A DNA stretch of 23,553 nt. It comes from a virus. Below are positions 4,066 to 23,553 of the stretch, piece after piece; position 1 is the stretch's first letter; each line of letters opens with the position of its first letter. The stretch covers positions 1 through 23,553 of IMG/VR virus record IMGVR_UViG_3300017724_000086, one strand, 5' to 3'. The notes beneath the pieces are model-generated. The model saw only the letters and a program-made list of their open reading frames with translations. It searched no databases and was not told the origin of the DNA. The translations under genes were made by a program, and so were the position numbers.

Positions 4066-5673
4066 ATGGCTAACTTCCTAAGACATGAAGGGTGTCCCAA
4101 GTGTAATTCTTCGGACGCCCTTGCTATTTACGACGACGGTTCTACGCATTGCTTTAGTGCCGTTTGTGACTACCATACACACGGTGACGGTGACATGCCT
4201 GAAGTTATCCCTATAGCAAAAGCAAAGCCTCTACAGATGTTTGGTACAGTGGCAGCAATACCCAACAGAAGAATCTCTAAAGAAACCTGTATGCGCTTTG
4301 GCGTAACCGTTGAGTACGGTTCTACAGGTGAAATAGAAAAACACTACTACCCTCTTTACGACGTCAACACTGGTGAAGTGTGTTCAGCTAAAGTTAGGGA
4401 AGTAAAGACTAAAAACTTCTTTAGTAACGGAGACCCAAAGACAGCTGGGTTTTTCGGACAACAACAGTGCACGACTAACAAATTCATAACTATCACTGAA
4501 GGTGAACTTGACGCCTTAGCAGTGTACGAAATGTTTAACAAGCAGTACGACGTCGTGTCCTTACGAACAGGTGCGTCCGGTGCTACGAAAGAAATCAAAG
4601 AGCAGTTAGAGTGGCTCGAAGGTTACGACACGGTGGTCCTTTGCTTTGATAATGACAAAGCTGGTGACGCCGCTTTGGAACAAGTCAAAGACCTCTTTAG
4701 TCCTAACAAGTTGAAGATCTGTAAGTTACCCTTGAAAGACGCTAGTGACATGCTTATGGCGAACAGGGTTAAGGACTTCACGCAAGCATGGTGGAATGCA
4801 AAGGTTTACCGCCCAGATGGTATTGTGGCAGGAACTGAAACATGGGACACACTGGTGCAGAAACGCCAAGTGAAGTCCATACCGTATCCTTGGAACGGCC
4901 TCAATGAGATAACAAGAGGACATCGACCGTATGAGTTGGTCACGATTACAAGCGGCAGTGGTATGGGAAAGTCCCAATTTATCAGAGAAATCGAATATGA
5001 TTTACTACGCCGATGCGAAGGCAATATTGGAGTCTTGGCGCTTGAGGAAGATTTGGCCCGAACATCGCTTGGTATCATGTCGGTGGCAGCGAACAGGCCC
5101 TTACATCTGGAAGAGGACACGCCAGTGGACGAGCTTCGGCCATTCTGGGAAGCCACATTGGGAACAGGACGTTACTACTTATTTGACCATTGGGGGTCAA
5201 CTTCAGCAGACAACTTGCTCGCCCGTGTTCGCTACATGGCAAAAGCACTTGACTGCAGGTACGTCGTATTGGACCACTTGTCTATCGTCGTCTCTTCCCA
5301 AGAGTCCGGAGACGAGAGAAAAGCCATTGACGAGATTATGACGCGTTTGCGTACGCTTGTGGCAGAAACAGGCATCTGCTTGTTCCTCGTGTCACACTTA
5401 CGCAGGTCACAAGGCAAAGCGCACGAGGACGGAGCGCAGATCAGCTTAGGTGAATTACGTGGTTCACAAGCTATCGCTCAGTTGTCGGACATTGTCATTG
5501 GTATGGAACGTGACCAGCAGAATGAAAACGAAGACATTAGAAATACTACTACTGTACGAGTCCTTAAAAACAGATATACAGGTGAAACTGGACCCGCTTG
5601 TTGGCTGCAGTACGAGAAACAAACAGGGAGGTTACAGGAAGTCGCAAATCCTAATGTTGGCGAGGACTTTTAA
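4066..5673 (+). CDS. Bifunctional DNA primase-helicase (T7 gp4-like)
   Basis: The 535-aa protein has the full T7 gp4 domain order. An N-terminal zinc-binding domain uses C10, C13, C29 and C34. The TOPRIM primase core carries TEGELDA (E145) and CFDNDKAGD (D195/D197). A DnaB/RecA-like helicase follows, with Walker A SGSGMGKS (297-303, K302), a catalytic EED near 327-329, Walker B VVLDH (D403), the LVSHLRR motif (441-447) and KNRYTGETG (501-509) carrying the likely arginine finger. It should unwind DNA 5'-3' as a ring and lay down RNA primers for the polymerase encoded two genes later. Only two bases separate it from ssb, and its stop codon overlaps the HNH gene start by one base. Length and motifs look complete. 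Confidence 0.95.
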   Translation: MANFLRHEGCPKCNSSDALAIYDDGSTHCFSAVCDYHTHGDGDMPEVIPIAKAKPLQMFGTVAAIPNRRISKETCMRFGVTVEYGSTGEIEKHYYPLYDVNTGEVCSAKVREVKTKNFFSNGDPKTAGFFGQQQCTTNKFITITEGELDALAVYEMFNKQYDVVSLRTGASGATKEIKEQLEWLEGYDTVVLCFDNDKAGDAALEQVKDLFSPNKLKICKLPLKDASDMLMANRVKDFTQAWWNAKVYRPDGIVAGTETWDTLVQKRQVKSIPYPWNGLNEITRGHRPYELVTITSGSGMGKSQFIREIEYDLLRRCEGNIGVLALEEDLARTSLGIMSVAANRPLHLEEDTPVDELRPFWEATLGTGRYYLFDHWGSTSADNLLARVRYMAKALDCRYVVLDHLSIVVSSQESGDERKAIDEIMTRLRTLVAETGICLFLVSHLRRSQGKAHEDGAQISLGELRGSQAIAQLSDIVIGMERDQQNENEDIRNTTTVRVLKNRYTGETGPACWLQYEKQTGRLQEVANPNVGEDF

Positions 5674-5990
5674 TGCGGACAAGAAGAAGAATAGATGCAT
5701 TAATCAAGAAAAAGCATATTAGGGATTTTAAAGTTAACAAAGGGTGTCAAGAGTGTGGTTACAATGAGATACCTGAAGCATTAGAACTGGACCACGTCGA
5801 CAGAACAAAGAAAAACTTTAAGATGTCAAAGGGACATCATTATTCGTGGGAAAGAATACATAGAGAATTAGAAAACTGTGTTGTTCTTTGCTCTAACTGT
5901 CATAGAAAAAAGACAACGGAAGAAAAAGACTACTTAGAAACCGACTACGTGGAGCCTGAAGAACTACAGTATGATTTATTTGGATCTTGA
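5673..5990 (+). CDS. HNH endonuclease, possibly homing-type
   Basis: The 105-aa protein shows the zinc-bound HNH signature: CQEC (25-28) for the first knuckle, ELDHVDRTKKNF with the catalytic His in DH (about 41), then ENCVVLCSNCHRKK, which supplies the second CxxC and the final His. The N-terminus is highly basic (MRTRRRIDALIKKK). It is squeezed between primase-helicase and polymerase, with a 1-base overlap upstream and 20 bases downstream. It is visibly more AT-rich than both neighbours, which suggests later arrival. Free-standing HNH genes beside replication genes are often homing endonucleases; a recombination or packaging nickase is the alternative. All expected active-site residues appear intact. 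Confidence 0.9.
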   Translation: MRTRRRIDALIKKKHIRDFKVNKGCQECGYNEIPEALELDHVDRTKKNFKMSKGHHYSWERIHRELENCVVLCSNCHRKKTTEEKDYLETDYVEPEELQYDLFGS

Positions 5991-8990: not shown

Positions 8991-9267
8991 TAACGCAACA
9001 CCAGCTGATTGGGACGCCTTAACAGCACTGAATAAACTATCAATTAGAAAAACACCAGACCCTGTTGAACAACCCGACCACTACAACAACGGAGCAATAG
9101 AAGCTATCGAAGCTATCAAAGCGTCTATGCCTGAGAACGAGTTTAGAGGCTATCTTAAGGGTAACGCTTTAAAGTACCTTTGGCGTTATGACTACAAAGG
9201 TAAACCAGTAGAAGATTTACGTAAGTGTAAATGGTACATTGAACGACTAATCAAGGAAATTAATTAA
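8980..9267 (+). CDS. DUF3310 protein (T7 gp1.7-related)
   Basis: The start at 8980 has AAGAGGAAG (8965-8973) just upstream and removes a basic, implausible N-terminus read from 8941. The 95-aa product contains VEQPDHYNNGAIEAIEAIKA, then FRGYLKGNALKYLWRYDYKG and VEDLRKCKWYIERLI. This HY-gxiE...GN-KYlwR-KG-l-DL-Ka--Y---l pattern is the DUF3310 signature. T7 gp1.7, a nucleotide kinase involved in dTMP/dGMP handling and ddT sensitivity, contains this domain, so a nucleotide-metabolism role fits the neighbouring reductase. The last base of its stop is the first base of the reductase start. Confidence 0.88.
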   Translation: MSIDNATPADWDALTALNKLSIRKTPDPVEQPDHYNNGAIEAIEAIKASMPENEFRGYLKGNALKYLWRYDYKGKPVEDLRKCKWYIERLIKEIN

Positions 9268-11138
9268 TGGACGCATATCAACAGTACATACATAAGTCGC
9301 GCTATGCTCGTTACTTGCCTAACGAACAGCGTCGTGAGACTTGGGAAGAAACTATCGACCGTTACCTTAACTTTTGGATTGAAAAGGGTAAGTTAACACT
9401 AGAACAAGCTAATGGTATTTTTGCAGACATTCATGACATGGGCGTTATGCCTTCTATGCGAGCATTGATGACTGCAGGAGAAGCTCTTGACCGTGACAAC
9501 GTAGCTGGCTTCAACTGTAGCTACCTACCTATTGACCACCCTAAAGCGTTTGACGAGATGATGTACGTACTCATGTGCGGTACAGGAGTAGGCTACAGCG
9601 TCGAACGACAATACGTAAGCAAGCTACCAGACGTAGCAGAGGAGTTTCATGACACAGATACCGTTATACACGTCGCTGACAGCAAAATTGGATGGGCTAA
9701 AGCCTACAGAGAACTTATTAGCTTGCTCTATTCTGGTCAGCTTCCAAAGTGGGACGTCAGTGGAGTACGACCTGCAGGGTCAGCCCTTAAAACTTTCGGA
9801 GGTAGAGCGTCTGGTGCGGATCCTCTTGTTGACCTCTTTAAATTTACCACAGAGGTCTTTAGGGAAGCTGCTGGATGTAAACTTTCCTCCATCGAGTGTC
9901 ATGATATCTGCTGTAAGATTGCACAAATCGTCGTCGTCGGTGGAGTTAGAAGGTCCGCTCTCATCAGTCTCAGTAACCTCACTGACGATAGACTCCGACG
10001 GTGTAAGTCAGGACAATGGTGGCAAGACAATCCTCAACGTGGACTAGCAAACAACAGTGCTTGTTATACAGAGAAGCCAGACTTTGAGGCATTTTTAAAT
10101 GAGTGGAAAAGTTTATACGAGTCCCGTTCAGGAGAGCGAGGTATGTTCTCTAGAGTCGCAAGTCAAAAGCAAGCTGCAAAGAACGAGCGACGAGATGCTA
10201 CCTATGATTTTGGAACTAATCCATGTAGCGAAATCATCCTCAGACCTAACCAATTCTGCAATCTATCAGAAGTTGTTGTCAGGTCATCCGATACGCTCTC
10301 AGACCTTAAACGAAAAGTACGTGTTGCGGCTATCCTTGGAAGCTTACAGGCTACGTTAACTGACTTTCGTTACTTACGTAAGATATGGCAGAAGAACACT
10401 GAAGAAGAAGCACTTCTTGGTGTTAGCTTAACGGGTATTATGGATCACCCTACGTTATCAGGAAGGAGGGACAAAGGTGTTCTCAAGACTTGGCTCACTG
10501 AGCTTAAAGAAGAAGCTATTAAAACTAACGCAGAGTGGTCTAACAATCTTGGTATCAATGTTTCTACTGCCATTACTGCTGTTAAACCTTCCGGTACTGT
10601 TAGTCAGCTGGTTGATTCTGCAAGCGGTATCCATCCTAGATACTCAGATCAGTACATTAGACGAGTCAGAGCAGACGCAAGAGACCCGCTCTGTCAAGTC
10701 TTAGAATCGGCAGGAGTGCCTGTAGAGGACGACGTAATGTCACCCACTACTAAGGTATTCTCCTTCCCGATAAAGTCGCCTGAAGGAGCTGTAGTGGCTT
10801 CTGAGATGGGTGCAATGGAGCAACTTGAGTTGTGGGAAATATACCAGGACTTCTGGTGTGAACATAAGCCGTCTATGACATGCTACTACCGTGATGATGA
10901 GTTCCTGGAAGTAGGTCAATGGTTGTACAACAAGTTCGATAAGATAAGCGGAGTTAGTTTCCTCCCTTATTCCGAACATACGTATCAACAAGCGCCTTAT
11001 GAACCCATAGACTCAGAGACCTATGAGAAGCTGAAGGAGGAATTCCCAGAGACGATCGAATGGAACATCTCTGAGAACTCCGACATGACGGAAGGGTCTC
11101 AACAGTTAGCCTGCACTGGTAATAACTGTGAGTTGTAA
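9267..11138 (+). CDS. nrdJ: Class II (adenosylcobalamin-dependent) monomeric ribonucleotide reductase
   Basis: The 623-aa enzyme resembles Lactobacillus leichmannii ribonucleoside-triphosphate reductase (739 aa). All five functional cysteines are visible: C84 (FNCSYLP) and C331 (FCNL) as the reducing pair, C320 in NPCSE as the thiyl-radical cysteine exactly 11 residues before C331, and C616/C621 in the C-terminal CTGNNC swinging tail. N318 and E322 flank the radical Cys as expected, and KPSGTVSQL supplies the phosphate-binding loop. It reduces ribonucleotides to deoxyribonucleotides without oxygen dependence but needs vitamin B12 from the host. It is shorter than the bacterial enzyme. It ends the rightward module, 4 bases before the terminator stem region begins. 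Confidence 0.95.
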   Translation: MDAYQQYIHKSRYARYLPNEQRRETWEETIDRYLNFWIEKGKLTLEQANGIFADIHDMGVMPSMRALMTAGEALDRDNVAGFNCSYLPIDHPKAFDEMMYVLMCGTGVGYSVERQYVSKLPDVAEEFHDTDTVIHVADSKIGWAKAYRELISLLYSGQLPKWDVSGVRPAGSALKTFGGRASGADPLVDLFKFTTEVFREAAGCKLSSIECHDICCKIAQIVVVGGVRRSALISLSNLTDDRLRRCKSGQWWQDNPQRGLANNSACYTEKPDFEAFLNEWKSLYESRSGERGMFSRVASQKQAAKNERRDATYDFGTNPCSEIILRPNQFCNLSEVVVRSSDTLSDLKRKVRVAAILGSLQATLTDFRYLRKIWQKNTEEEALLGVSLTGIMDHPTLSGRRDKGVLKTWLTELKEEAIKTNAEWSNNLGINVSTAITAVKPSGTVSQLVDSASGIHPRYSDQYIRRVRADARDPLCQVLESAGVPVEDDVMSPTTKVFSFPIKSPEGAVVASEMGAMEQLELWEIYQDFWCEHKPSMTCYYRDDEFLEVGQWLYNKFDKISGVSFLPYSEHTYQQAPYEPIDSETYEKLKEEFPETIEWNISENSDMTEGSQQLACTGNNCEL

Positions 11139-11142
11139 ACTT

Positions 11143-11168
11143 AAGGGGGACTTCGGTCCCTTTTTTTA
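11143..11168 (+). terminator. Intrinsic terminator with UUCG tetraloop
   Basis: GGGAC (11147-11151), loop TTCG, GTCCC (11156-11160), followed by seven T (11161-11167). The stem can be extended by G-T and A-T pairs to 11143. It directly follows the reductase stop. The stop codon of the converging leftward gene (11166-11168) lies in the T-run. On the minus strand there is no comparable T-run, so termination of the late transcript here would be weaker. Confidence 0.93.
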
Positions 11169-13901
11169 TTTATCGTGTAAAAGCCTATATAGCTCAGGTT
11201 CTTGTGCTTTTATTAAAGCCATTTTACCGGAGCGTTCTAAGGTAATTTTTACCCTCTGTCTTTGTGAATAAGACATCTTCTTAATTCTTTCTACAGCTGA
11301 TTTATCAAGTACTTTTTCTGAAGTAGTACTAACAAAAGGAGTTGTAGCAGCTACAGAAGGTGACCTAATTCCTGCTTCTCGTAAAGGAACAGTGGCTTGC
11401 TGTGCTCTATCGACAAAACCAGAGATTCCTTTTTGTAGTCCTGTCTGTTTAGCAAAGATACGTTGAGCAGTTTCTGTGGCTAACAGACGAGAACCAACAA
11501 TACCAGAACTTATTGTGGCGCTCAAAGACGGTGAAGTTGCGGTCATAACTTGACCTACCAAAGCAGTATTAAATAAACGTTCAAAAACAGAAGCATCAAA
11601 AGACTTAGGAGCAAACCTAGCTAATTCTTTTTCTTTATTATTTAAGTTTTTAGCCTGTTGCTCTAAGTTTGCAAGCTGAACCCTATGATTTTCTCTTGCT
11701 TCAGTTACAAGATCCTTTACTCTAGCTTTAACTTCAGCTGTTTGACTAAGACCAGAAAAGCGGCCTCTAACGTCTTTTATATTTTGAGTAAGTTCAACTG
11801 CTGCGTTATCTTTAGCCTTACTTAATGCTTTTCTTTCTGCTTTTATTTGAGACTTCAAGTCAGAAGCAATATTGTTTACGTCTGTATTAGCCTTTTGTAT
11901 AATAGTGGCGTTTCTTTCCCTAGCTAGTTTTGCAACACCTTGCGCTTCTCTTTGTAAGTTTACATTACCCCTTGCAGACATATATTGACTAAAACCTTTA
12001 GAGGTTTCAATCCAATCTTCAGCAGTAAACGCTCCTTGTACTACAGCTTTTCCTCCAGTAGCTCTTCTAGTAGATTCTTGGACTAGCCTCTTGGTTGCCC
12101 ACAAACCATTCTCTGCGTCAAACGCCTGCCTTTCAGCAGAAGTAAGATTACTTTTAATAATTGTGTCAAAGTAGTCTTTAATTGAGTCAACATAGTTCCT
12201 AGTTAAAGGATCATTTTCAGTAACGCGATTAACTACAGTACCTATACGAGACCTAAGATTAACTAAGTCTTCTCCTGTAATTTTACCTTTAGTAGTTAGT
12301 TTGTTTAAACTTACTTCGGCGTACTCTAATACTTCATCTAGCTGTCTACCTACTAGTACAACATCTGGATCAGTCTCATGTAATTTCTTAAGATTAGCTA
12401 TTATTTGTGCGGGGTTTACTTCATAGGTTTTAGATTTAGCTGTAACATAACCATACTTTTTCCACAGATCATCTAAAGCCTTTAAGGCATCTTGAGGATC
12501 TAAAGTGGTTATTGCAGTTACTTCGTCTTTAGGAGCAGCGCCAGGTGCAGCCATTGTCAACGCATCAGATCTAAATTGACCTTGAACAGCATTAACCGCC
12601 TCGTCTGCTTCTCTTATTGCAATAGCTTTTAAATCATCTCCAGAAGCGTTTTTAATAGCTGTAAGACGTTCTACCTCATCTTCTGTTAATCTTTTAGCAG
12701 AATTAGTTTCAAGTTTGTCGTTTAGACGTAATCTTTCTATTGCGTCTTCCTTCATTTCGTTTAAAGAACTTCTAGATAAAGAAAGCTCAAGTGCGTTTGC
12801 TTTTTTAGCTCTAGATACTTTATTAGCTGCTTCTTGCTTTAAGTTTACAGCGGCTTTACGCATTATGTAAGAAGGAGCTATCTTTGAAGCAACAGCCCTA
12901 ACTTGTTGTTCAGTAAGTGTCATACCACCATAGGCTTTAGAAACAACAGATCTATAAAAAGGAGCAACAGGATGTTCAGTAAACATCAAGTTAATAAAAT
13001 CTTTGTTTTGTCCTAACTGTTGTGCCATTTTATTGTTTACAGCACCAGAATAAACTTTCTTTACGCCCTCAAAACCAAAAGGAATTATAGCACCCGCTGC
13101 AAAACTTAATGCAGCATTGTTTAAAGCTTGATCTGGATTTTCTCCTTCAAACCCAGCTACAGCAGCAAGAGGAGCGCCAACAGCAGCAGAAACAACAGGT
13201 GTTTTGTAAGGAGCAACAGCAACACCAGCTTTATTAAGAACTCGTTCTAAAGGTTTTATAGCGCTTGAAATAATAGGAATAGAAGACCTTGTAGGTGCTT
13301 GTACGGCATAGTGGGCCGACATTTTACTTAATGTAGCAGCATCGTCAGCAGATAAACCAACTTGCCCTCCTATAGCAGATCTTACACCTTGACCGCCTTT
13401 AATTGCGGCCTGTCCTTGCCTTAATCTAGCCGCTGTTGTTAATAGAGCACCACCAGCAATAGAGACAGGAGATAACATATTACCTGTTATTTGACCTATA
13501 GTTCCTGCAATAGGTTTTCTTTCCATAAACTCTGCTGTTTCCGTTTCTAAATCAGACAGCATTTCCTCACGGATAGTAGTAACGTCTTTACCTTGAGAAA
13601 GTTCTGGATAAAAGGTTTTAAAAGCAGCGGCAGAAACCCAACTACCTACCTCTTCACTTTTGTTTAGCCACAGTCCATCAACAACTAAACGAGCAACCAT
13701 TGCTAGATCATTAGAAGTCCATTCTTCTTCCCTATCTAATTCTTCATATAAACCTTTAGCAACTCTTTCTTCTGTTTGTTGCTCTGCGGTAATAGCATAG
13801 TCTCTAAACCTATTTACAGAAGATGGTTTTCCTGTAACAAAACGGGAATAACGGTTGTTTGGAGATATCTCTTCTCCAGTAACAATATTTTGTTCTGCCA
13901 T
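11166..13901 (-). CDS. Large internal virion / ejection-type protein (T7 gp16 position)
   Basis: This 911-aa protein ends the leftward late cluster. Seen in sequence: a charged N-terminal region (EQQTEERVAKGLYEELDREE); a Gly/Ala/Ile-rich stretch around residues 125-150 (AGTIGQITGNMLSPVSIAGG) and another near 225-260 (VVSAAVGAPLAAVAGF, NAALSFAAGAIIPFGF) that could insert in or cross membranes; long helical, coiled-coil-prone segments around 340-450 and 660-770; and a basic C-terminus. There is no transglycosylase or protease motif. The order connector, nozzle, three proteins of increasing size matches T7 gp11-gp12-gp14-gp15-gp16, so ejection with the DNA is inferred. It has an AT-rich base composition compared with genes upstream in the operon. 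GATGAGG lies 7 bases before its ATG. Confidence 0.65.
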   Translation of the reverse strand: MAEQNIVTGEEISPNNRYSRFVTGKPSSVNRFRDYAITAEQQTEERVAKGLYEELDREEEWTSNDLAMVARLVVDGLWLNKSEEVGSWVSAAAFKTFYPELSQGKDVTTIREEMLSDLETETAEFMERKPIAGTIGQITGNMLSPVSIAGGALLTTAARLRQGQAAIKGGQGVRSAIGGQVGLSADDAATLSKMSAHYAVQAPTRSSIPIISSAIKPLERVLNKAGVAVAPYKTPVVSAAVGAPLAAVAGFEGENPDQALNNAALSFAAGAIIPFGFEGVKKVYSGAVNNKMAQQLGQNKDFINLMFTEHPVAPFYRSVVSKAYGGMTLTEQQVRAVASKIAPSYIMRKAAVNLKQEAANKVSRAKKANALELSLSRSSLNEMKEDAIERLRLNDKLETNSAKRLTEDEVERLTAIKNASGDDLKAIAIREADEAVNAVQGQFRSDALTMAAPGAAPKDEVTAITTLDPQDALKALDDLWKKYGYVTAKSKTYEVNPAQIIANLKKLHETDPDVVLVGRQLDEVLEYAEVSLNKLTTKGKITGEDLVNLRSRIGTVVNRVTENDPLTRNYVDSIKDYFDTIIKSNLTSAERQAFDAENGLWATKRLVQESTRRATGGKAVVQGAFTAEDWIETSKGFSQYMSARGNVNLQREAQGVAKLARERNATIIQKANTDVNNIASDLKSQIKAERKALSKAKDNAAVELTQNIKDVRGRFSGLSQTAEVKARVKDLVTEARENHRVQLANLEQQAKNLNNKEKELARFAPKSFDASVFERLFNTALVGQVMTATSPSLSATISSGIVGSRLLATETAQRIFAKQTGLQKGISGFVDRAQQATVPLREAGIRSPSVAATTPFVSTTSEKVLDKSAVERIKKMSYSQRQRVKITLERSGKMALIKAQEPELYRLLHDK

Positions 13902-13910
13902 GATTAAACC

Positions 13911-15173
13911 TCATCTGTACTTAGCAGGAAAGATTTTAAACGCTTCTTCAAACTCAGCTAAAATCTGTTGTCTTTCTTGATCTGTTTTAGCGTTTTGGAT
14001 ATCTATATCAAGCTGCTCTGCTGCTCGACTGTATCCGTTAGCTATCCTAGTAAAGCCAACAAAAGTAGGCGCCCGAACTTGATTTGGACCCATTTGTTGT
14101 TCTATAAAATTTTCTGAAAGAAGGCCAATGTCGATAGTAGCCGTTAATATTCTTCGTTCGGCGTCTAAATAATCTTGTATTTCTTGTCGACCGGCGCTTG
14201 ATGGAGGAAACCCATCAGAAAAGATAGCAATGTCTGTATCAGAAGCTACACCAGGAGGAAGACTATCAATAATTTTAGTATTTTTCTCTCTTATGAATGC
14301 AGTTTTAGCTTGCTCTGATTCATCTCTTACTCCAGCGGCAGTGTAAAAAGCAGTTCTAACAGTCCCTAATAAACCAGAAGTAATATCTTCTGTCAATAAT
14401 TTATTACTTAAAGTTGTGTTTGACTGTAGAGAAACATTTGCTTTACCTGTTGCGTCTTGGTACTCATAAAACTTGTCATAAGTTTGAGGAGCCATGTCTT
14501 CTGGTTTAAAATCCTTTGCAGGATCTAAAGGTATAAGATCAGCTCTATTTCTGCTTTGAGCATAGTTGTTTATAGACTTTGTAGTGTATTTTCTTTGCTC
14601 TACAAGAGTTTGTAAATGGTTACTAAACTTATCATCGGGTGCATTAGCATATAACTCTACACCTTCAGGACTAACTAAAGCAGACCCTTCAGCAACAACA
14701 ACAGGTTTTTCAGGTTCTGGTTTGGTGGCTATATAGTTTCTAAGAAAAGCAACGTCAGCACCCTCTAATGCTGCAACCATCTCAGCATCCTTTCTTTCTT
14801 CCGCTATTTTAATAGCTCTACCTTCTAATGCTTTCCTGTTCCTTTCTTTTCTTTCTACTTCTTGTTGAGCAATAGTAGATTGACGCTTAACTTGCCCACG
14901 CTGTTCTGCTTGTGCAATTTGCTCAGGTGTAGCACCCAAGCCAACAAGAGAACCAATAGCGTCTTGTGTGTCAGCACCTTCAGCTACTGCCTGTTCCATA
15001 CCAAACAGACCGCCAGTAATACCACGCTGAGTTTGCTCACGCTGCTCCTTCATGCGTTGTGACGCACTTGTCATAGCAGGACCAGCTGCTGCAGCTCTAC
15101 CTACTTGATATAGGTTCTGACCGAATGCAGGTTGCATAAGACCCTGTAGTAATCCTTGTGAAAACCTAGCCAT
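13911..15173 (-). CDS. Internal virion protein (T7 gp15 position)
   Basis: The 420-aa protein starts MARFSQGLLQGLMQPAFGQN behind a near-perfect AGGAGGT. Residues 20-150 are Gln/Ala/Glu/Arg-rich helix (QRMKEQREQTQRG, QAEQRGQVKRQ, ERKERNRKALEGRA); the rest is mixed alpha/beta without a recognised enzyme motif. The C-terminus ends EEAFKIFPAKYR. Its place between the two other internal-type genes suggests a middle component of the ejectosome. The base composition drops sharply about 300 bases into the gene, which could mark a recombination joint. The function is inferred from synteny with T7 only; no homologous motif was identified. Confidence 0.6.
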   Translation of the reverse strand: MARFSQGLLQGLMQPAFGQNLYQVGRAAAAGPAMTSASQRMKEQREQTQRGITGGLFGMEQAVAEGADTQDAIGSLVGLGATPEQIAQAEQRGQVKRQSTIAQQEVERKERNRKALEGRAIKIAEERKDAEMVAALEGADVAFLRNYIATKPEPEKPVVVAEGSALVSPEGVELYANAPDDKFSNHLQTLVEQRKYTTKSINNYAQSRNRADLIPLDPAKDFKPEDMAPQTYDKFYEYQDATGKANVSLQSNTTLSNKLLTEDITSGLLGTVRTAFYTAAGVRDESEQAKTAFIREKNTKIIDSLPPGVASDTDIAIFSDGFPPSSAGRQEIQDYLDAERRILTATIDIGLLSENFIEQQMGPNQVRAPTFVGFTRIANGYSRAAEQLDIDIQNAKTDQERQQILAEFEEAFKIFPAKYR

Positions 15174-15174
15174 C

Positions 15175-16026
15175 TTAACCTCCTATACCTAGTAGTTCAA
15201 AGAAGGGGTTAACAATCTTAGTTATACCACCGCCCATACCAACTGATTGTGGTGTCAACAGCCCTGACAAGAGACCTGTACCAAGTTGACCATAAAGGTT
15301 AGCTTGTCCAAGACCTGAACCAAGCAGTGCCTCAAGTCCACCCATTTCTGCTTCACCAAACAAACCAGCGCCGTACAGCTGACCACGTTGTGCCATCTGT
15401 GCAGCTGGTAGACCTGCTTGTAGGACGTTCAATGCTTGCGCTTGAGGTGTATAACCAGCACCCATGAACTGACCGCCTAGTTGCGCCTGTTGCATTTGCT
15501 CTTGCTGTGCCTGTTGCATAGCACTAAGCATGGCCTGGTTACGTGATTCTTCTTGAGCCTTAGCCAAAGCAAACTGCTCAGGAGCGCCTCCGAATTGCGC
15601 TGTACGCAAACCTAAGCGTCCTTGTGAAGCTAGACGCTCTTCAGTAGCAAGCCTCTGACGCTCCTCTTCAGGACGCTGTGCTTGCCTAATGCGTTCAAAC
15701 ACGGCTTGCTCACGTTCCTGCGTAGGTTGCATGGCTTGACCATAGAACTGACCAGCACCTCCAAACATCTGTTGTTGGAATGCTTGTTCTTGAGGAGACA
15801 AACCTACAGTAAGACCGCCTTCAGGAGTAGTACTTAGTGCTCCTCCTGTTCCTGTCGTTACTGTAAAGGGACGGAATTGTGACTGCTCCATTCCTGTCTC
15901 AGCAAGCTCACTAGATTCCCTACGCGCTTGTTCACCTATGTCTCCTAGACGCTGATAAGCTTTACCTGTAAGTAAACCACCAGCGCCAAGAGTACCTAAA
16001 CCTAATAATTGCGGTAAGCTCAGCAT
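15175..16026 (-). CDS. Gln/Ala/Gly-rich internal virion protein (T7 gp14 position)
   Basis: The 283-aa product opens with a hydrophobic, Gly-rich helix (LPQLLGLGTLGAGGLLTG, residues 4-21), then long Gln-rich helices (AMLSAMQQAQQEQMQQAQLG; FERIRQAQRPEEERQR). It ends in a Gly/Leu-rich region with NPFFELLGIGG. Low complexity, a membrane-active N-terminus and position behind the tail nozzle gene are typical of the smallest ejection protein in podoviruses, which forms the outer-membrane part of the DNA conduit in T7. A strong GAGGAGA ribosome site precedes it. It is separated by 1 base from the next gene. Confidence 0.6.
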   Translation of the reverse strand: MLSLPQLLGLGTLGAGGLLTGKAYQRLGDIGEQARRESSELAETGMEQSQFRPFTVTTGTGGALSTTPEGGLTVGLSPQEQAFQQQMFGGAGQFYGQAMQPTQEREQAVFERIRQAQRPEEERQRLATEERLASQGRLGLRTAQFGGAPEQFALAKAQEESRNQAMLSAMQQAQQEQMQQAQLGGQFMGAGYTPQAQALNVLQAGLPAAQMAQRGQLYGAGLFGEAEMGGLEALLGSGLGQANLYGQLGTGLLSGLLTPQSVGMGGGITKIVNPFFELLGIGG

Positions 16027-16039
16027 GATTTAATTCTCC

Positions 16040-17548
16040 TCATAGTAATTTACCCATTAAAGCCATTACGTTAATCTCCTGTAGTGACAGCTGTGAGCCG
16101 TCAATCTCCGCTTCTAAACCTACAACAACACTAGTTCCGTAGCCTGTTGCATTTAAACTTCTTTGGTTGGTCAAAGCACCACCTGTGAATTCCACAACGG
16201 TGTACTCACTCTCACCGAAGAAACCAGTAATTTGGTCTCCTACTGTAAACTCTGCTGTTGAGTAAGTACCCTTAAAGTCATAAGCCCACTTCATGAATAC
16301 TGTTGCGTTGTTAGCACCTACTAACGTTGGCTTAAGCTTCTTAAGAATCTTTACTCTAGAGCTATCACCAAATGTCAAACTTGGGCTATAGTATTTAAAA
16401 CGGTAGCCTAAACCGTTGTCCTGATAACCAGCGTACTCACTAATACCTTCAGAAGTACCTATGTAAAAGTCACCGTTGTCTAAACGTGCGTAACAAGCAA
16501 AGCCTGTAGACGGCCACCGTGTGACACGATAGGAACCATTTTCTGTTGTTCCTCGTACGTCAAAACAATAAGTGTTATTCTGACCTACAAAAGTTAGTAA
16601 GTAGAAACCTTCTTCAGGGCTATAAGCGGACCTAAAGAATGAAGTTTCTGTCTGAAGTGAATTAATTATGTCCTTAGTAATGTTTCCTGACAGACTGCTA
16701 ACAGGCATGGACTTTTGTTGTATTGTGCGTCCAAAGCTCTTAAGACCGGTATGTGACAAAAACAGTACGTCAGTGCCTGTATACTGCACAGTGTCTCTGT
16801 CTACACAACCAACGCCAGCTACAGTATCTTGAAGAACCATAGTTGCTGGTGCTTCTGCTCCTTGGTATACAATAATGCTATGCTTACCAAAGATAATTAA
16901 GAAACCATTGTGTGCAGCCAGTGCGACAATCTCGTCATAACCATCGGGCCATACTTTAGATACATCAATAGAACCACTAGTACCACCTGAGAAGTTATGA
17001 CCAATTAAAAGGTCAGACCAGTAAACAACAGAAGGGTTTGAACTAAGTCCTGTTACCCAAAGACGACCATAAGCTGACAGTACTTCGTTGCCTTGTACAA
17101 CGCCGGCAGAACCAGAGACTGCATCTAAACGTACTACAGACGAACCGTCGTACACCAAAGGTGCATGAGAAGCTTGAAACAAGTAAGCCTTGTCATTAAA
17201 GTTAACAATCTTCCAGTTGTCAGCAGTGATTGTATAACCGCCAGGCGTAGCGTCTGTAAGAGTAGTAGTTCCTGTGAATACTTTATTGTTACCTACAGAT
17301 AAAACTACACTACTACCGCTACTTCTTTCAAACTCCTTTATAGCTCTAATTGTTCCTGAGCCTAAAGCTGTCTTGTTAGTTGTAATAACAGCATGGCCCT
17401 TACGTGCAGCAATACGACCACGTTTGTCAATCACAGCATTGTCTGCAATCTCTGCAAACGACGGATCTTGAGCAAGTGGCGAGTCCTCAGTGTTAATACC
17501 TTTGAACGCTGGTGCTACAAGATTAATACTCTTTAGTTCTTGAGCCAT
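16040..17548 (-). CDS. Tail nozzle protein (T7 gp12 / tail tubular protein B-like)
   Basis: The 502-aa protein begins with a pattern typical of podovirus nozzle proteins: an N-terminal strand, then GINTEDSPLAQDP, DNAVIDKRGRIAARKGHAVI, comparable in layout to the GIS-QQP...N-----GL-KRP start of T7 gp12. The body is rich in beta strands spaced as propeller blades (VVLSVGNNKVFTG, AYLFQASHAPLVYDG, LWVTGLSSNPSVVYWSD, FLIIFGKHSIIVYQG, DFYIGTSEGISEYAG). It would form the distal hexameric tube of the short tail. It follows the connector gene by one base. The assignment rests on fold outline and order; P22-type stabilisation proteins are the other possibility within the same functional class. Confidence 0.75.
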   Translation of the reverse strand: MAQELKSINLVAPAFKGINTEDSPLAQDPSFAEIADNAVIDKRGRIAARKGHAVITTNKTALGSGTIRAIKEFERSSGSSVVLSVGNNKVFTGTTTLTDATPGGYTITADNWKIVNFNDKAYLFQASHAPLVYDGSSVVRLDAVSGSAGVVQGNEVLSAYGRLWVTGLSSNPSVVYWSDLLIGHNFSGGTSGSIDVSKVWPDGYDEIVALAAHNGFLIIFGKHSIIVYQGAEAPATMVLQDTVAGVGCVDRDTVQYTGTDVLFLSHTGLKSFGRTIQQKSMPVSSLSGNITKDIINSLQTETSFFRSAYSPEEGFYLLTFVGQNNTYCFDVRGTTENGSYRVTRWPSTGFACYARLDNGDFYIGTSEGISEYAGYQDNGLGYRFKYYSPSLTFGDSSRVKILKKLKPTLVGANNATVFMKWAYDFKGTYSTAEFTVGDQITGFFGESEYTVVEFTGGALTNQRSLNATGYGTSVVVGLEAEIDGSQLSLQEINVMALMGKLL

Positions 17549-17549
17549 A

Positions 17550-18197
17550 TCAGATAGTCCTAAAGTACATCTCTTCTGGATGCTTGGCTGCGTCTATTGC
17601 GATAGCGTCAGACAAATACCTATCAGCAATACCAAAGTACTCAGCAGTAGAAGTGCCTCCTGTCTCACCACGTTCACGGGCTAACAAAGCAACAGCAAGG
17701 TGTATCACGGGTTGAGTAGGTATTAACAACGTGTCCGTGTTAGCACTTAAGTCACCTTGTCGTTTAACTACATCAAACCGCAAGCTATATACACCATCTG
17801 GTGTTGGTCCTGCGAGAACTTGTGTGTCACCGCTGGCGTCTAAACCGTTGTACGTGTAGTACATAGGTGCGCCTGTAGCGGCGCTATTGATGTACAACTG
17901 CTCGTTAAACCAGTCTTTACTTTGGTACTGCATAAAGACGTTACTAGTATCGTTAAGCACACACATGACCTTTACGTTGTCACCACAGTCAGTCAATGAG
18001 TACGTGTTGTCGTCAGCTGTAGTAGAAACAGTAATAGTGCTTCTCAAGGCAGACCAGTCATTGGACTCCTCTACTAACTTCTTAGCGTCGTTAATAAAGT
18101 CACCAACCATTTTATTGTAAGTAGTACTAGTAACTGACGTGGTTTCTTCTTCACGTAACCTACGTAGCACACTGTTCATAAGGTTTAAATATGTCAT
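17550..18197 (-). CDS. Head-tail connector / adaptor (T7 gp11 or P22 gp4-like)
   Basis: The 215-aa protein starts with a helical bundle segment (LMNSVLRRLREEETTSV, YNKMVGDFINDAKKLVEES) ending in DWSALR. A beta-sandwich-like centre follows (TITVSTTADDNTYSL, VKVMCVLND, YSLRFDVVKRQGDL), then C-terminal helices (PVIHLAVALLARERGE, ADRYLSDAIAIDA). This helix-sandwich-helix layout and the W-x-L/F signature after the N-terminal helices are shared by podovirus adaptor proteins, which ring the portal and receive the nozzle. It overlaps the giant gene by 4 bases (ATGA) and is followed by the nozzle gene, as in T7 gp11-gp12. AAGGA lies about 10 bases before the start. Confidence 0.75.
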   Translation of the reverse strand: MTYLNLMNSVLRRLREEETTSVTSTTYNKMVGDFINDAKKLVEESNDWSALRSTITVSTTADDNTYSLTDCGDNVKVMCVLNDTSNVFMQYQSKDWFNEQLYINSAATGAPMYYTYNGLDASGDTQVLAGPTPDGVYSLRFDVVKRQGDLSANTDTLLIPTQPVIHLAVALLARERGETGGTSTAEYFGIADRYLSDAIAIDAAKHPEEMYFRTI

Positions 18198-21100
18198 CCA
18201 ATATATTCCTTAAACAAACTGCTTGTTATTGAACCTGGTAATTCCTCTAAAGAGGCTACGTAGTCAACTTGAGGTGCTTGACCTATTTCTTCCAAAGTAG
18301 GTAACTCGTAATTAATACCTGACATAAAGGGACTAAAGTCAGTCTTTTTAGGAGCAGTAGCCATCATACCTGTACCACTGCCAAAGCCAGGTCCAGTACC
18401 ATCACCAGTACCAGTCCCTGTTCCAGCACCTGAACCACCTCCAGTTCCAGAACCGTCACCTACACCTGTTCCAGTACCAGTACCGTCTCCTGTACCGTCT
18501 CCAATTCCAGTAGTGTCCTTACCTTGTGTTTCTGCATCCTTACGTTCTTGCTCAGAAGACTCAAGATCTTTCTCTAGCTGTTCGTCAGCAGCATCTTTAG
18601 TTGTTTGTTCAGCATCCTTAGCTCCTACCTCAGCACCCGTGTCTTTCTGAGCATTCTCGTCCTTAGTAGCTTCCTCAGCAGCCTGTTGTTCCTTAGCGGC
18701 TTCCTCAGCTGCTTGCTGCTCTTTAGCTTGCTCTTCAGCAGCTTGTTCCTTAACGGCTTCCTCTGCTGCTTGTTCTTCCTTACGAGTTTGCTCTGCTTCT
18801 TCCTTACGTGCTTGCTCAGCTTCTTCCTTTTGCTGTGTTTCCGCAACAGCTTCCTTTTCTGACCTTTCAGAAGCAGCTTCTTCCTTTTCCTGAGTCTCAG
18901 CCTCAGCGTCCTTTTGAGCTTCTTCAGCGTCCTTAGCTTCGTCCTCAGCTTCTTTTTCTTCGGTCTCTGCTTGTGCGTCTTTCTGAGCTTCTTCTGCAGC
19001 TACCTCTTCTTTTTCTTGAGTTTCAGCAGCAGCATCCTTAGCCGTTTCTTCCGCGTCCTTATCAGCCTCTTCAGCCGCCTGTTGTTCCTTCTCTTCGTTC
19101 TCAGTGTCTTTCTCTGCAGTTTCGGCAGCCGCTTCTTCTTTACGCTGCTCTTCAGCAACTACTTCTTTGTCTTCCTGTTCAGCAGCAATGTCCTTTTCTT
19201 CGTTTTCAGCATCTTTATCAGCTTGTTCAGCAGCAATGTCCTTTTCTTCGTTTTCAGCATCTTTAGCTTGCTCTTCGGCAGCTTGCTCATCTTTATCTTG
19301 TTGCTCAGCCTGTTGGTCTTTTTCTTCTTTTTCTGCTTCTTCTTTCTGTACTTCTTCAGCAGCTTCTTTTGTTATTTCCTCAGCCTCTTCCTTTCTTAGT
19401 TCTTCGGCTTGCTCCTTCTGTTCAGTCTCTGCTTGTGCGTCTTTCTCTGCGTTTTCTGCAGCTACCTCTTCTTTTTCCTCAGTCTCAGCTTGAGCATCTT
19501 TTTCTGCAGTCTCTGCATCTTTAGATTCAGTTTCAGCATCAGCTTCTTTTTTAGCTTCTTCTGCAGCTACCTCTTCTTTTTCCTGAGTTTCTGCAACGGC
19601 GTCCTTCTGAGTTTGCTCAGCGTCCTTAGCAGATTCTTCTGCGGCTATGTCTTCTTTTTCTTGGTTCTCTTCTTCTTTAGTAGCTTGCTCAGCCGCCTGT
19701 TGCTCTTTAGCTTGATTCTCAGCTTCTTTATCGGCTTGTTCCGCAGCCGTCTCTTCTTTCTGTTGAGTCTCTGCCTCTTTATCTTGTTGCTCAGCTTGAG
19801 TTTCTTTTGTTTCTTTTTCTGCGTCTTTTTCTTGTTGCTCAGCTACGTCCTTTTCTTGAGTCTCAGCATCAGCATCTTTCTGAGCTTGTTCCGCTGCTTG
19901 AGCCTCTTTTTCCTCAGTCTCAGCTTCAGCGTCCTTTTGAGCTTCTTCAGCAGCTTGCTGTTCTTTATCTTCAGTCTCTGCGTCAGCTTCTTTCTTAGCC
20001 TCTTCGGCTGCTTGCTCTTCTTTCTCTTGAGTCTCAGCCTCAGCGTCCTTCTGAGCTTCCTCAGCAGCCTGTTGTTCCTTTTCCTCAGTTTCAGCCTGAG
20101 CGTCCTTCTCAGACTGTTCAGCAGCAGTATCCTTATCTTCCTGCTCAGCCTGACGATCCTTTTCAGTTTCTTCAGCGTCCTTCTGAGTCTCTTCAGCGTC
20201 TTTATTTTCTTCTTCGGCTTGACGTTCTTTTTCAAGCTTCTCTGCTATTCTTTCTTCTTTGTCTTCAGTTTCTGCCTGAGCGTCTTTCTTAGCCTCTTCA
20301 GCAGCTACTTCTTCTTTTTTCTGAGTCTCAGCCTGAGCTTCCTTATCAGCGCGTTCAGCCGCTTCAGCTTCTTTTTGTTCAGTTTCAGCAGTAGCTTCCT
20401 TATCAGCACGTTCAGCCGCTTCAGCTTCCTTCTGTTCGGTTTCAGCAGTAGCTTCCTTTTGTGCTTCCTCAGCAGCCTGTTGCTCCTTCTGCTGTGTTTC
20501 CGCAGCTGCTTCCTTTTCCCCTTCTTCTGCCGTTTCTTTATCAGAGCGTTCAGCAGCGTCCTTAGAGGCACGTTCAGCAGCTTCCTTAGAAGCACGTTCG
20601 GCAGCAGAGTCTGCCTCTTTTTGAGTTTGCTCTGCCGCTTGAGTATCTTTCTGTTGTCGTTCTGCCGCGGCTGCTTCTTGTTCTTTCCCTGTCTGTTCTG
20701 CAGCAGCCCTGTCTTGATCCTTTTGTATTTCTTCTGCAGTGTCGTCAGCAGTAGGAATAGTGCTTGCTAATGGGTCGTCTTCGTCAGTAGGAGTAGTAGA
20801 ATCACCACCGCCTCCACCTCCGCCACGAATTTCGTTTAAAATATCTTCTACCGTTTCTGGATCTTCTGGATCTGGATCAGGATCATAATTTACATAACTA
20901 GGATCTCTTGGTCCATCAGGCTCACCTTCAAAGTAAGGAGTATTGGGCGTGTCTCCCCAATCAGTAACTCCGCCAGCATCTCCTTCCCAGTTTCCTTGCT
21001 CATCAGTGTTTCTACCGCCTACTCCTTGATTAGTATCGATAACAAGAGTGTTTCCAGAACGTTCAATATAGTAACCTTGTTCTGCTAAAGCATGTGCCAA

Positions 21101-23128
21101 CTCTGCCCTGGTTTCTACACCAAAAGCGTCCATTAATTTTTCTTCGGTGTTTAAATCTATAGTTGCATAGCCACGTTCATCAACAGAATATAAAGGCTCT
21201 GTTTCCCTTAAAAAAGAAAATAACTCCTCAATATCCCCAGTTTCGTGCGCCCTTGTTGCAGCATCGTAAAAATCTTGGTCGTATTCAGCTCTGTAATCAA
21301 CACCACCAACAGTAGTCATTAATGCTTCAGAAAGACGAAGTTCATTAACAGTAGGATCTGAATTTGGGTCGTACCCTGCTTCACGCCATGCTCTATTGAC
21401 AGAATCAAACTCGTAACTATTTCCGTCTGCGTCAATAATTAATGTAGGGTTATTGTCCACATCATAAAAAATAGAGTTGCCACTAGAATCAACATGTATT
21501 TCTGCATAATCAACAATTTCTCCTGTTGATTCGACTCTGTACACGCCTTCTTCACTATCGTACTCAATGTCGTTACGGTCGTAAATATTCCCCTGTTCGT
21601 CAATATAAACTTGGTTTATTGATTCAGCAGCAAAATTAGATAAAGAAGCAGCAAGCAACTCTTCTCTTGTTTTTTCGTCTTCATCAACAACATCTCCAAC
21701 ACCTTCTACAGCGTCTGCAATGCCTCGTGCAATTTCATCAAATTGGTCTAAGTAGTCAGGAATGTCTACCTGGAACAAGTCCCGTTGTTCAGACAAGAAG
21801 TCTTCAATAGCACTTATGTCAGGAAGATAACCACCAAAGAACTCTCGTAGTTCATCGGCAGTAGAACTTGCCATTTCTTCTAGGTTTTCTAAGTAGCCTC
21901 TAAACTGCTCCGAAAGACCGGCGCGAACCATAGCTTCAGCAAGTTGCTGAGGATCTAAGTCACCGCTTGTTGCTAACTGAGTAACTGAGTTAATAACACC
22001 TGCTTGAATAACAGCGTCTGCTAATTCATTACCTGTCTCTAGTGCCTTAAGAATGTCTTGTGCTGTATCTGTATCTAGCAACCCACCAGAAATAGCAGAC
22101 TGTACAATGCTTTCTAGTGTTATGTCTATGTCTTCACCGGTTAAAACCGAAGAACCTACTGTAGAAACTACTGAGTTAACCGCAGCGGATAAAGCAGCAG
22201 CTGAAGAACCACTTAAGTTTAAAAGCGCAGCAACGTCTTTACCAATACCAGCACCACCTAAAAAAGAACCAGCAGCAATCTGCATTCCTATTTTTACGTA
22301 GTCAGTAAGACCTGCATGACTTACGTCTACGGTCTTTACATAAGCAGATCCATTCCACCGGAACTTGTCACCTGACTCACTGTAGACTGTATCGTTGATG
22401 CCGTACTTTGCTAGTAGTGCTTGGTTTTCTTCAGAGTTAACCCAACGGTTATACGCTGACGCTTGGTTTTGTGTACGTTGGCCGTACAGTTCTTCATACG
22501 TTAAGTTAGCATCGTCACCGTACTGAGTTAGATCCTCGCCCTCAAGGATCATTAAATCGTCTTCAGACAAGCTACCAGTGTACTCGTCCCAGTTACCTAC
22601 GTCGTAATCACCAGACTGAATTAACTCTTCACGTTCAGTCATGTAAGCAAGGTAGTTGTCAAACGTACCAAAGACTTCTGGTAGCCTGTTTACGGTGTCA
22701 CCTTCAAAGTACTCACGCAGTTCTGCTTCAGTTAACTGCTCAGCTTCTCTACTTCCGTACAAAGAGTCTGGACTAGCGGTACCACGCTCAGCACCTCTAA
22801 AGAATGTAAAAGTCATTTCAGCAGGTTCTTCTACTGACTCATCACCTTTAACATCACGCGCTGGTTTAACGCCACCAGTATCTGGAGCTGTAGTAGGCGT
22901 AGAAAGACCACCTACAGGTCCACCAGCAGGATCAAAAGGGTCTGATTCTCCTGGTGCTCGTTTAGTAGGAGAAGACGTAAACATTCCATTGTTGGTTGAC
23001 GACGGAACTTTAATAATAGTTTTATTAGATATGTCTCTTTTGGGGCTTACAGGCATATACCCAACAGGAGTAAACTCAACAAGTTTTCCGTCTATCTCTA
23101 AGATGTCGCCGTATCTTGGAGCCGCCAT
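18194..23128 (-). CDS. Giant 1644-aa late protein with a ~743-residue Glu/Lys helical repeat shaft
   Basis: Not recognised as a known family. Layout: residues 1-30 beta-like (RYGDILEIDGKLVEFTPVGY); 50-100 Pro/Gly/Ser linker; 120-270 globular acidic; 278-350 Ala/Gly/Ser/Val-rich, possibly membrane-active (MQIAAGSFLGGAGIGKDV); 360-500 helical; 505-580 beta units of the DxxGN type; 590-700 globular; 735-795 Asp/Pro and Gly linker with a six-Gly run; 796-1538 a polar helix of Ala/Glu/Lys/Gln repeats; 1539-1587 Gly/Thr/Asp tract; 1588-1644 a short unique tail. GGAAGAAG precedes the ATG, and holin and connector genes flank it at -1 and +4 spacing, so it belongs to the late structural operon. No enzyme motif was seen. 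A virion fibre shaft or an ejected periplasm-spanning protein (TolA-like in composition) are the leading guesses. The frame is open throughout. Confidence 0.85.
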   Translation of the reverse strand: MAAPRYGDILEIDGKLVEFTPVGYMPVSPKRDISNKTIIKVPSSTNNGMFTSSPTKRAPGESDPFDPAGGPVGGLSTPTTAPDTGGVKPARDVKGDESVEEPAEMTFTFFRGAERGTASPDSLYGSREAEQLTEAELREYFEGDTVNRLPEVFGTFDNYLAYMTEREELIQSGDYDVGNWDEYTGSLSEDDLMILEGEDLTQYGDDANLTYEELYGQRTQNQASAYNRWVNSEENQALLAKYGINDTVYSESGDKFRWNGSAYVKTVDVSHAGLTDYVKIGMQIAAGSFLGGAGIGKDVAALLNLSGSSAAALSAAVNSVVSTVGSSVLTGEDIDITLESIVQSAISGGLLDTDTAQDILKALETGNELADAVIQAGVINSVTQLATSGDLDPQQLAEAMVRAGLSEQFRGYLENLEEMASSTADELREFFGGYLPDISAIEDFLSEQRDLFQVDIPDYLDQFDEIARGIADAVEGVGDVVDEDEKTREELLAASLSNFAAESINQVYIDEQGNIYDRNDIEYDSEEGVYRVESTGEIVDYAEIHVDSSGNSIFYDVDNNPTLIIDADGNSYEFDSVNRAWREAGYDPNSDPTVNELRLSEALMTTVGGVDYRAEYDQDFYDAATRAHETGDIEELFSFLRETEPLYSVDERGYATIDLNTEEKLMDAFGVETRAELAHALAEQGYYIERSGNTLVIDTNQGVGGRNTDEQGNWEGDAGGVTDWGDTPNTPYFEGEPDGPRDPSYVNYDPDPDPEDPETVEDILNEIRGGGGGGGDSTTPTDEDDPLASTIPTADDTAEEIQKDQDRAAAEQTGKEQEAAAAERQQKDTQAAEQTQKEADSAAERASKEAAERASKDAAERSDKETAEEGEKEAAAETQQKEQQAAEEAQKEATAETEQKEAEAAERADKEATAETEQKEAEAAERADKEAQAETQKKEEVAAEEAKKDAQAETEDKEERIAEKLEKERQAEEENKDAEETQKDAEETEKDRQAEQEDKDTAAEQSEKDAQAETEEKEQQAAEEAQKDAEAETQEKEEQAAEEAKKEADAETEDKEQQAAEEAQKDAEAETEEKEAQAAEQAQKDADAETQEKDVAEQQEKDAEKETKETQAEQQDKEAETQQKEETAAEQADKEAENQAKEQQAAEQATKEEENQEKEDIAAEESAKDAEQTQKDAVAETQEKEEVAAEEAKKEADAETESKDAETAEKDAQAETEEKEEVAAENAEKDAQAETEQKEQAEELRKEEAEEITKEAAEEVQKEEAEKEEKDQQAEQQDKDEQAAEEQAKDAENEEKDIAAEQADKDAENEEKDIAAEQEDKEVVAEEQRKEEAAAETAEKDTENEEKEQQAAEEADKDAEETAKDAAAETQEKEEVAAEEAQKDAQAETEEKEAEDEAKDAEEAQKDAEAETQEKEEAASERSEKEAVAETQQKEEAEQARKEEAEQTRKEEQAAEEAVKEQAAEEQAKEQQAAEEAAKEQQAAEEATKDENAQKDTGAEVGAKDAEQTTKDAADEQLEKDLESSEQERKDAETQGKDTTGIGDGTGDGTGTGTGVGDGSGTGGGSGAGTGTGTGDGTGPGFGSGTGMMATAPKKTDFSPFMSGINYELPTLEEIGQAPQVDYVASLEELPGSITSSLFKEYIG
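18368..18514 (-). repeat. Gly/Thr/Asp tract in the giant protein
   Basis: Residues 1539-1587 are almost entirely Gly alternating with Thr, Asp or Ser (GTGTGTGVGDGSGTGGGSGA and similar), encoded by degenerate CCAGTACC-type hexamers on the plus strand. It links the helical shaft to the 57-residue C-terminal tail and is probably a flexible tether. Confidence 0.9.
18515..20743 (-). repeat. Coding tandem repeats: 16-19 residue Glu/Lys/Ala/Gln units
   Basis: Within the giant gene, residues 796-1538 repeat a unit best described as AETEEKEQQAAEEAQKDAE (19 residues, 57 bases) with variants of 16-18. Glu precedes Lys by 3-4 residues throughout, the salt-bridge pattern of stable single alpha-helices; there is no heptad of hydrophobic residues, so a classic coiled coil is less likely. 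Exact repeats at the DNA level are few: 42 bases at 19176-19217 recur identically at 19224-19265. Two adjacent 57-base units starting at 20337 and 20394 encode the same 19 residues but differ at four silent sites. Confidence 0.9.
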
Positions 23129-23129
23129 A

Positions 23130-23474
23130 TTACTTCTTCCAGTTAGCTAAACCACGTAGCCCAAACGAAGCCGCAACAGCAGCACCCAAGAAACCTTTGT
23201 ACCACTCAGGCATAGAATCTAATGCTTCAAAGCCAGACATTACTACAGGAACCATGCTAGGAAAGAACGCAAGAATACAAGGTACTGAAAACAAAATTGT
23301 AAACCACTCGTCTTTCCATGAGTTAGCCGCATTGTTCGCATGTATGTTTTCCCAGTTAGCGTCCTGCTGTATAGCTACCATCTTACGCTCATGGACAGCC
23401 TTCTTTTCTTCTGACTTGCGCTGAAGATGTCCACCAACAAGGTTAACAATAGGTCCAATAAGCTGTTGTATCAT
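23130..23474 (-). CDS. Holin-like membrane protein (GTA-holin 3TM-type)
   Basis: The ATG at 23474 is chosen over a TTG at 23492 because AGGA lies upstream and the start forms an ATGA overlap with the preceding gene. The 114-aa product has a weakly hydrophobic N-terminal helix (IQQLIGPIVNLVGGH), a charged helical linker (RKSEEKKAVHERKM), an SWKDEWFTI entry, a strong membrane helix (ILFSVPCILAFFPSMVPVV), then FEALDSMPEWYKGFLGAAVAASFGLRGLA as the second. The W-K-DE-(F/W)-T....P.....F..L...P.WY.......ASFG-R pattern recurs in holin-like proteins of marine phages and in the GTA_holin_3TM group. It would permeabilise the inner membrane at lysis, releasing the endolysin. Function inferred. Confidence 0.65.
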   Translation of the reverse strand: MIQQLIGPIVNLVGGHLQRKSEEKKAVHERKMVAIQQDANWENIHANNAANSWKDEWFTILFSVPCILAFFPSMVPVVMSGFEALDSMPEWYKGFLGAAVAASFGLRGLANWKK

Positions 23475-23553
23475 TCTGTATCCTGATCCCAAAGAGCTTC
23501 GATAGTTCCAATACGAATTGTTAACTCGTGAACCTCTTCTTCTATCTGACGTA
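23471..23553 (-). CDS. C-terminal fragment of an upstream late gene
   Basis: From the right edge leftwards, a frame reading RQIEEEVHELTIRIGTIEAL then WDQDTE stops at TGA (23473-23471) in an ATGA overlap with the holin-like gene. The 26 visible residues form an acidic amphipathic helix. Too little remains to name it. Confidence 0.6.
   Translation of the reverse strand, partial: RQIEEEVHELTIRIGTIEALWDQDTE

Follow-up and report, generated by a model that had tools for sequence, protein, structure and literature searches.

In ordinary phage fibres, the N-terminus binds the tail and is seldom replaced, while the C-terminus is swapped (PMC10386132). Phage SU10 carries long and short tail fibres on its adaptor and nozzle, with the long fibres docking on the adaptor via their N-termini (PMC9509320). 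The collagen-like fibres of EHEC prophages (EPcl) have an extended stalk in which the end domains are joined by collagen-like modules and by helical ones of low hydrophobicity; a phage fibre coil with hardly any Leu, Val or Ile is a trimer (PMC3368898). Single alpha-helix (SAH) domains contain up to 80% of E+K+R, with Asp being rare (PMC5812594), and the spacer of TolA and TonB (domain II) alternates between helical and proline-rich forms (PMC12204202). The window, i.e. the whole stretch of DNA analysed here, is a linear virus record of 23,553 bases, of an uncultured, probably marine, short-tailed phage. It encodes a giant late protein which is compared to these systems below.

Gene context of the giant gene

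An initial annotation of the window had reported a single open frame of 1644 codons between holin and connector genes. The frame was confirmed, with an ATG start (Table 1), and its position also holds, as the upstream slot contains a PHROG holin in relatives and an SU10-type adaptor (PF24175) lies downstream in the window. The minus-strand late genes of the window are ordered as holin-like gene, giant gene, SU10-type adaptor, nozzle-like gene and three ejection-like genes, the last three being without a family match in the window itself. Longer relative contigs have the late order small-terminase-like gene, endolysin, large terminase, portal-like, scaffold-like and capsid-like genes (portal, scaffold and capsid being named from position and sequence character), followed by a tail fibre, small genes, holin, giant, adaptor, nozzle and ejection-like genes. 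Across the relative contigs compared, the giant keeps this place between holin and adaptor, and the tail-fibre gene lies at another point of that operon. This separate tail fibre has matches in PHROG tail-fibre families (E=5.5e-39), and each of the eight contigs contains its gene cluster. Therefore, the giant is not the sole fibre candidate.

Table 1. Features of the giant gene and its neighbours (positions in the window)
Feature	Position	Strand	Basis or remark
Giant late protein gene, 1644 aa	18194..23128	-	ORF and relatives
Leader, residues 1-105, Pro/Gly-rich	22814..23128	-	AlphaFold confidence low
GMFT motif, residues 48-51	22976..22987	-	GM[LFM] near N-terminus in family
Conserved head domain, residues 106-266	22331..22813	-	AlphaFold; without structural match
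Ala/Gly-rich, then helical segment, residues 267-480	21689..22330	-	
Swapped middle module, residues 481-760	20849..21688	-	About 30-35% identity to relatives
Acidic and Gly-rich linker, residues 761-795	20744..20848	-	
E/K/A/Q shaft, residues 796-1538	18515..20743	-	Composition, periodicity, dN/dS
Gly/Thr-rich stretch, residues 1539-1587	18368..18514	-	
C-terminal tail type T1, residues 1588-1644	18197..18367	-	
SU10-type adaptor gene	17550..18197	-	PF24175, E=3.7e-15; start overlaps giant stop by 4 nt (ATGA)
Nozzle-like tail gene	16040..17548	-	
Three ejection-like genes (283, 420 and 911 aa)	11166..16026	-	Position and sequence character
Holin-like gene	23130..23552	-	Slot holds PHROG holin phrog_3427 in relatives

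The locus shares with SU10 (PMC9509320) the adaptor family PF24175, to whose gene the giant gene is coupled. Unlike the SU10 fibres, the giant has no detectable fibre-domain similarity (Pfam, PHROGs, PDB) and is encoded next to a separate fibre gene in the operon. The ATGA overlap between giant stop and adaptor start is found in 68/68 distinct genes with a recognised adaptor start, out of 77. A late protein outside the virion, such as a tail-assembly chaperone or scaffold, a lysis-stage protein beside the holin or a released decoy, would explain the position directly after the holin-like gene and the lack of a known virion domain. Such a role is improbable, given that the giant gene invariably overlaps the adaptor gene, that no signal peptide or lipobox is recognised by eye at the N-terminus, and that a protein of this size and conservation would be costly to discard.

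Elsewhere in the window, a B12-dependent ribonucleotide reductase (9267-11138) is closest to those of Roseobacter/Lentibacter cobavirus-type phages (about 62%), a hint at the host rather than proof of it. An HNH-type gene (5673-5990), recognised by eye, lies between the primase-helicase and DNA polymerase genes.

A family with interchangeable parts

The giant belongs to an undescribed family with swappable parts, in which the E/K rod is one of several interchangeable spacers; relatives are encoded by 196 IMG/VR contigs. That the protein was undescribed, as first supposed, is supported by the absence of matches in Pfam, PHROGs, NCBIfam, PDB, BFVD and cultured phages. Scans of the giant (PHROGs, Pfam, NCBIfam) and of 27 relatives (PHROGs, Pfam) gave no convincing match, and tblastn against cultured phages with the N-terminal half, the head consensus and the middle module returned nothing usable. 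A conserved-peptide scan of bacterial genomes found no giant relative; a nozzle relative is present in one Oceanospirillaceae MAG contig, which stops short of the giant-gene region. Among cultured podoviruses whose terminase, nozzle or reductase genes are related, none has an equivalent giant annotated in its tail region. AlphaFold models of residues 1-795 (mean pLDDT 53.5) and 100-440 (61.7) had no Foldseek match at E <= 0.001. The head (residues 106-266) was modelled with moderate confidence on 48 relatives, with a pLDDT of mostly 66-92 and a dip near 50 around residues 200-209, and has no significant match in PDB or BFVD.

Like tail fibres, the giant has an elongated, repetitive shaft, while neither its N-terminal part nor the protein as a whole shows a confident family or fold match to them (PHROGs, Pfam, NCBIfam, PDB, BFVD). 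Its gene accompanies the adaptor, nozzle and ejection genes, as for ejection or internal virion proteins, again with no sequence or fold match to these. Similarity to tape measures is weak and limited to a few members (best E 0.005), and no major-tail-protein gene was recognised in the relative contigs. The window member also lacks the Gly-X-X repeats of collagen-like phage proteins.

Distinct complete members measure 758 to 2042 aa. They have a GM[LF]T leader and a short tail at the ends, and between these a head, an Ala/Gly-rich helical segment and a spacer, which is E/K helix-like, collagen-like (25/63 distinct relatives), proline-rich or coiled-coil-like. GM[LFM] occurs near the N-terminus in 62/62 distinct complete members and near the C-terminus in 57/62. 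The tail of the window member does have 57 aa, preceded by the predicted 49 Gly/Thr-rich residues; it is, however, not unique as first proposed, being encoded by 32 IMG/VR contigs. It carries the motif FxPFxxG...SLFKEYIG, and proteins with this T1 tail have E/K shafts in every case with enough upstream sequence. The initial annotation suggested a search for syntenic long E/K proteins: E/K shafts occur in many IMG/VR contigs, and in the relative contigs compared the giants lie in the same holin-adaptor slot. Among them, two E/K-shaft giants with the same tail have kept the GM[LF]T leader, one with an unrelated head (L165:113-4300) and one with no head (L184:2296-6177).

Parts are exchanged along the gene. 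Compared to the close relative L001, identity is about 95% over residues 1-480, about 30-35% over residues 481-760 and about 94% in the shaft. The middle module had no relative in scans of viral contigs and cultured phages; the closest relatives share a different middle module among themselves. On the adaptor tree, proteins with an E/K shaft plus T1 tail form one clade (1 change, 100% of bootstraps), whereas the head-domain tree needs 3 changes, so the E/K shaft and tail belong with the tail genes. The genomes with E/K shafts are 94-97% identical to the window in their adaptors, 93-94% in their nozzles and 86-98% in their first ejection-like proteins, while their heads are as low as 63-69% identical, which places recombination junctions inside the giant gene. 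As adjacency in the genome is a simple null explanation of this co-inheritance, binding of the C-terminal tail to the adaptor does not follow from it alone.

The GM[LF][TSV] motif also recurs in the last ejection-like proteins (classes ej3/ej4/ejX), several times at the extreme C-terminus, with 8 occurrences against 0.8 expected, while none of 55 adaptors and 62 nozzles contains GM[LF]T. Since this comparison was chosen post hoc, once the motif had been noticed, the sharing is a lead and not a test. A GMLT-type motif like those at the termini of the giants closes the last ejection-like protein of L089, L078, L079, L042 and L110. From the sequences, the motif could possibly be a docking or targeting signal common to giants and ejection-like proteins.

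Composition and conservation of the E/K shaft

The shaft consists for 92% of the six residue types noticed at first reading (A/E/K/Q/D/T), with 222 E, 174 A, 91 K, 90 Q, 59 D and 45 T among 743 residues. The autocorrelation of K peaks at 19, 9, 10, 35 and 16 residues and thereby bears out the proposed units of 16-19 residues. The pairing described at i+3/i+4 stands for i+4 only, where acidic-to-basic pairs are enriched twofold (90 vs 41+-5 in shuffles); at i+3, they are at chance (40 vs 40). As stated before, a heptad core is absent. Instead, a stripe of Ala/Val/Ile/Leu/Met/Thr repeats every 3.8 residues, with a period of 3.82-3.84 in the window and in the eight other E/K members tested.

An extended, helix-like shaft agrees with these observations; its singleness, as claimed in the initial annotation, is not equally supported. 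The shaft resembles SAH domains in its E(i)->K(i+4) pairs, few hydrophobic residues without a hydrophobic seam, absence of Pro and length. It differs from them (PMC5812594) in an E+K+R content of 44%, a strongly negative charge (281 acidic and 107 basic residues, net -174 per chain) and common Asp (8%), Gln and Thr; charged residues plus N/Q reach 65%, below the level of about 80% with rare Asp that marks SAH domains. A single alpha-helix is therefore plausible but still a hypothesis, because the composition lies outside the typical SAH range and the phage coil poor in Leu, Val and Ile is trimeric.

The repeats do not come from misassembly. E/K shafts recur in the contigs of many IMG/VR relatives, with lengths of about 700-1150 residues. 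Between lineages they are 80-94% identical in register, compared to 33% when the shaft is shifted internally by a single unit without gaps and about 59% when its two halves are aligned with gaps. With dS at 0.5-1.9, a dN/dS of 0.06-0.09 indicates strong purifying selection. Together with the unit-by-unit collinearity, this implies that the rod is functional and not junk. An artefact of assembly or slippage, to which the tandem repeats and two contigs with frameshifts inside the shaft might point, is refuted by this recurrence across contigs and lineages, the collinearity and the low dN/dS. The frameshifts split the giant gene of E/K contigs at L077:5695-5713 (also L172) and L079:4020-4063 (also L177); that of L077 sits at an A-rich codon run, and both may be sequencing errors or real slippage. 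Differences in length are found mainly at shaft positions of about 484 to 646, between which L001 has a 390-residue expansion (the records L001 and L002 are identical and may represent one sample assembled twice).

Possible place in the virion

The initial annotation had left two readings, an extended fibre shaft or an ejected protein that bridges the host envelope, and both stay live. With about even confidence, an estimate that includes the canonical N-anchored version, we regard the giant as a late virion component, namely an extended accessory fibre associated with the tail and separate from the ordinary tail fibre, which is encoded upstream. A very long spacer would carry an N-terminal head and a variable middle module at one of its ends, and docking-like short peptides at both ends of the protein, the leader and the tail motif, may attach it. 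In the lineage of the window, the spacer would be an alpha-helical E/K/A/Q rod of about 743 residues, reaching about 110 nm if continuous; in other members, a collagen-like, proline-rich or coiled-coil-like spacer would take the equivalent position. An external fibre is favoured by the spacer types seen across the family and by the swapping of heads and middle modules. Collagen-like GXX repeats and coiled coils are spacer types known from phage fibres (PMC3368898), and exchanged heads and 280-residue middle modules are expected of surface-exposed parts in contact with the host. The giant shares with EPcl (PMC3368898) the extended stalk and the module types between end domains. It differs in showing no homology to it, in lacking PfN/PfC domains (no Pfam match), and in a far longer E/K shaft with the 3.8-residue stripe. 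Against a fibre speak the failure to match any fibre family by sequence or structure, the bona fide tail fibre already encoded, the motif common to ejection-like proteins, and the swapping of the head while the C-terminal half stays with the adaptor, which genome adjacency alone could cause. Nor does the giant follow the known fibre plan of a conserved N-terminal anchor with an exchangeable C-terminal tip, the universal GM[LF]T leader being the counter-sign.

This leader bears on which end would dock. Judged from sequence, its universality argues for the N-terminus and the co-inheritance with the adaptor for the C-terminus. One version of the favoured fibre is a homotrimeric side fibre with its leader on the adaptor and the E/K region as an Ala-rich trimeric coiled coil. 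It has the universal leader and the SU10 and trimeric-coil precedents on its side. The stripe period of 3.82 instead of 3.5, the net charge on each chain and a C-terminal tail type that tracks the adaptor better than the head does make this version rather doubtful. The opposite polarity, with the C-terminal tail on the adaptor or nozzle, would define a new class of tail cable with a single alpha-helix of 110-170 nm. This proposal, which also takes in docking peptides at both ends, the exchangeable N-terminal head, interchangeable spacers and residue-level selection, is a long shot.

An ejected, envelope-spanning protein, the main rival reading, would be packaged and released at infection, its rod passing through the channel and across the periplasm and its Ala/Gly segment contacting the membrane. 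We consider this unlikely, albeit kept alive by three features in which the giant resembles podovirus ejection proteins: its coupling to the adaptor, nozzle and ejection-like genes, a motif in common and an Ala/Gly-rich segment. The C-terminal half is inherited together with the adaptor, in genomes whose nozzles and first ejection proteins are also highly identical, and the weak tape-measure similarity would also fit. The Ala/Gly segment was at first taken to favour ejection; with a moderate peak hydropathy of 1.53 in the window, and more than 1.6 in only 23/62 members, it leaves the matter undecided. TolA and TonB (PMC12204202) likewise alternate helical and proline-rich spacers within one family; unlike them, the giant is a phage late gene product without a TolA/TonB domain match or a recognised N-terminal transmembrane anchor, and the likeness is consistent with a spacer role without placing the giant in the periplasm. 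Further, the weakness of the tape-measure similarities, the exchangeable head and middle module, which suggest surface exposure, and the spacers of other members speak against ejection. These collagen-like and coiled-coil-like, fibre-type spacers, which together with the lack of a family match set the giant apart from ejection proteins, are hard to fit through a tail channel.

A low-complexity rod conserved residue by residue across near-saturated synonymous divergence is unexpected of a mere spacer. Should the helix run unbroken through the rod, its length as a helical spacer would be exceptional for a phage protein. The family offers a natural series of helix-like, collagen-like, proline-rich and coiled-coil-like spacers in one position, and this swapping makes the function of spacers in phage adsorption or DNA delivery testable.
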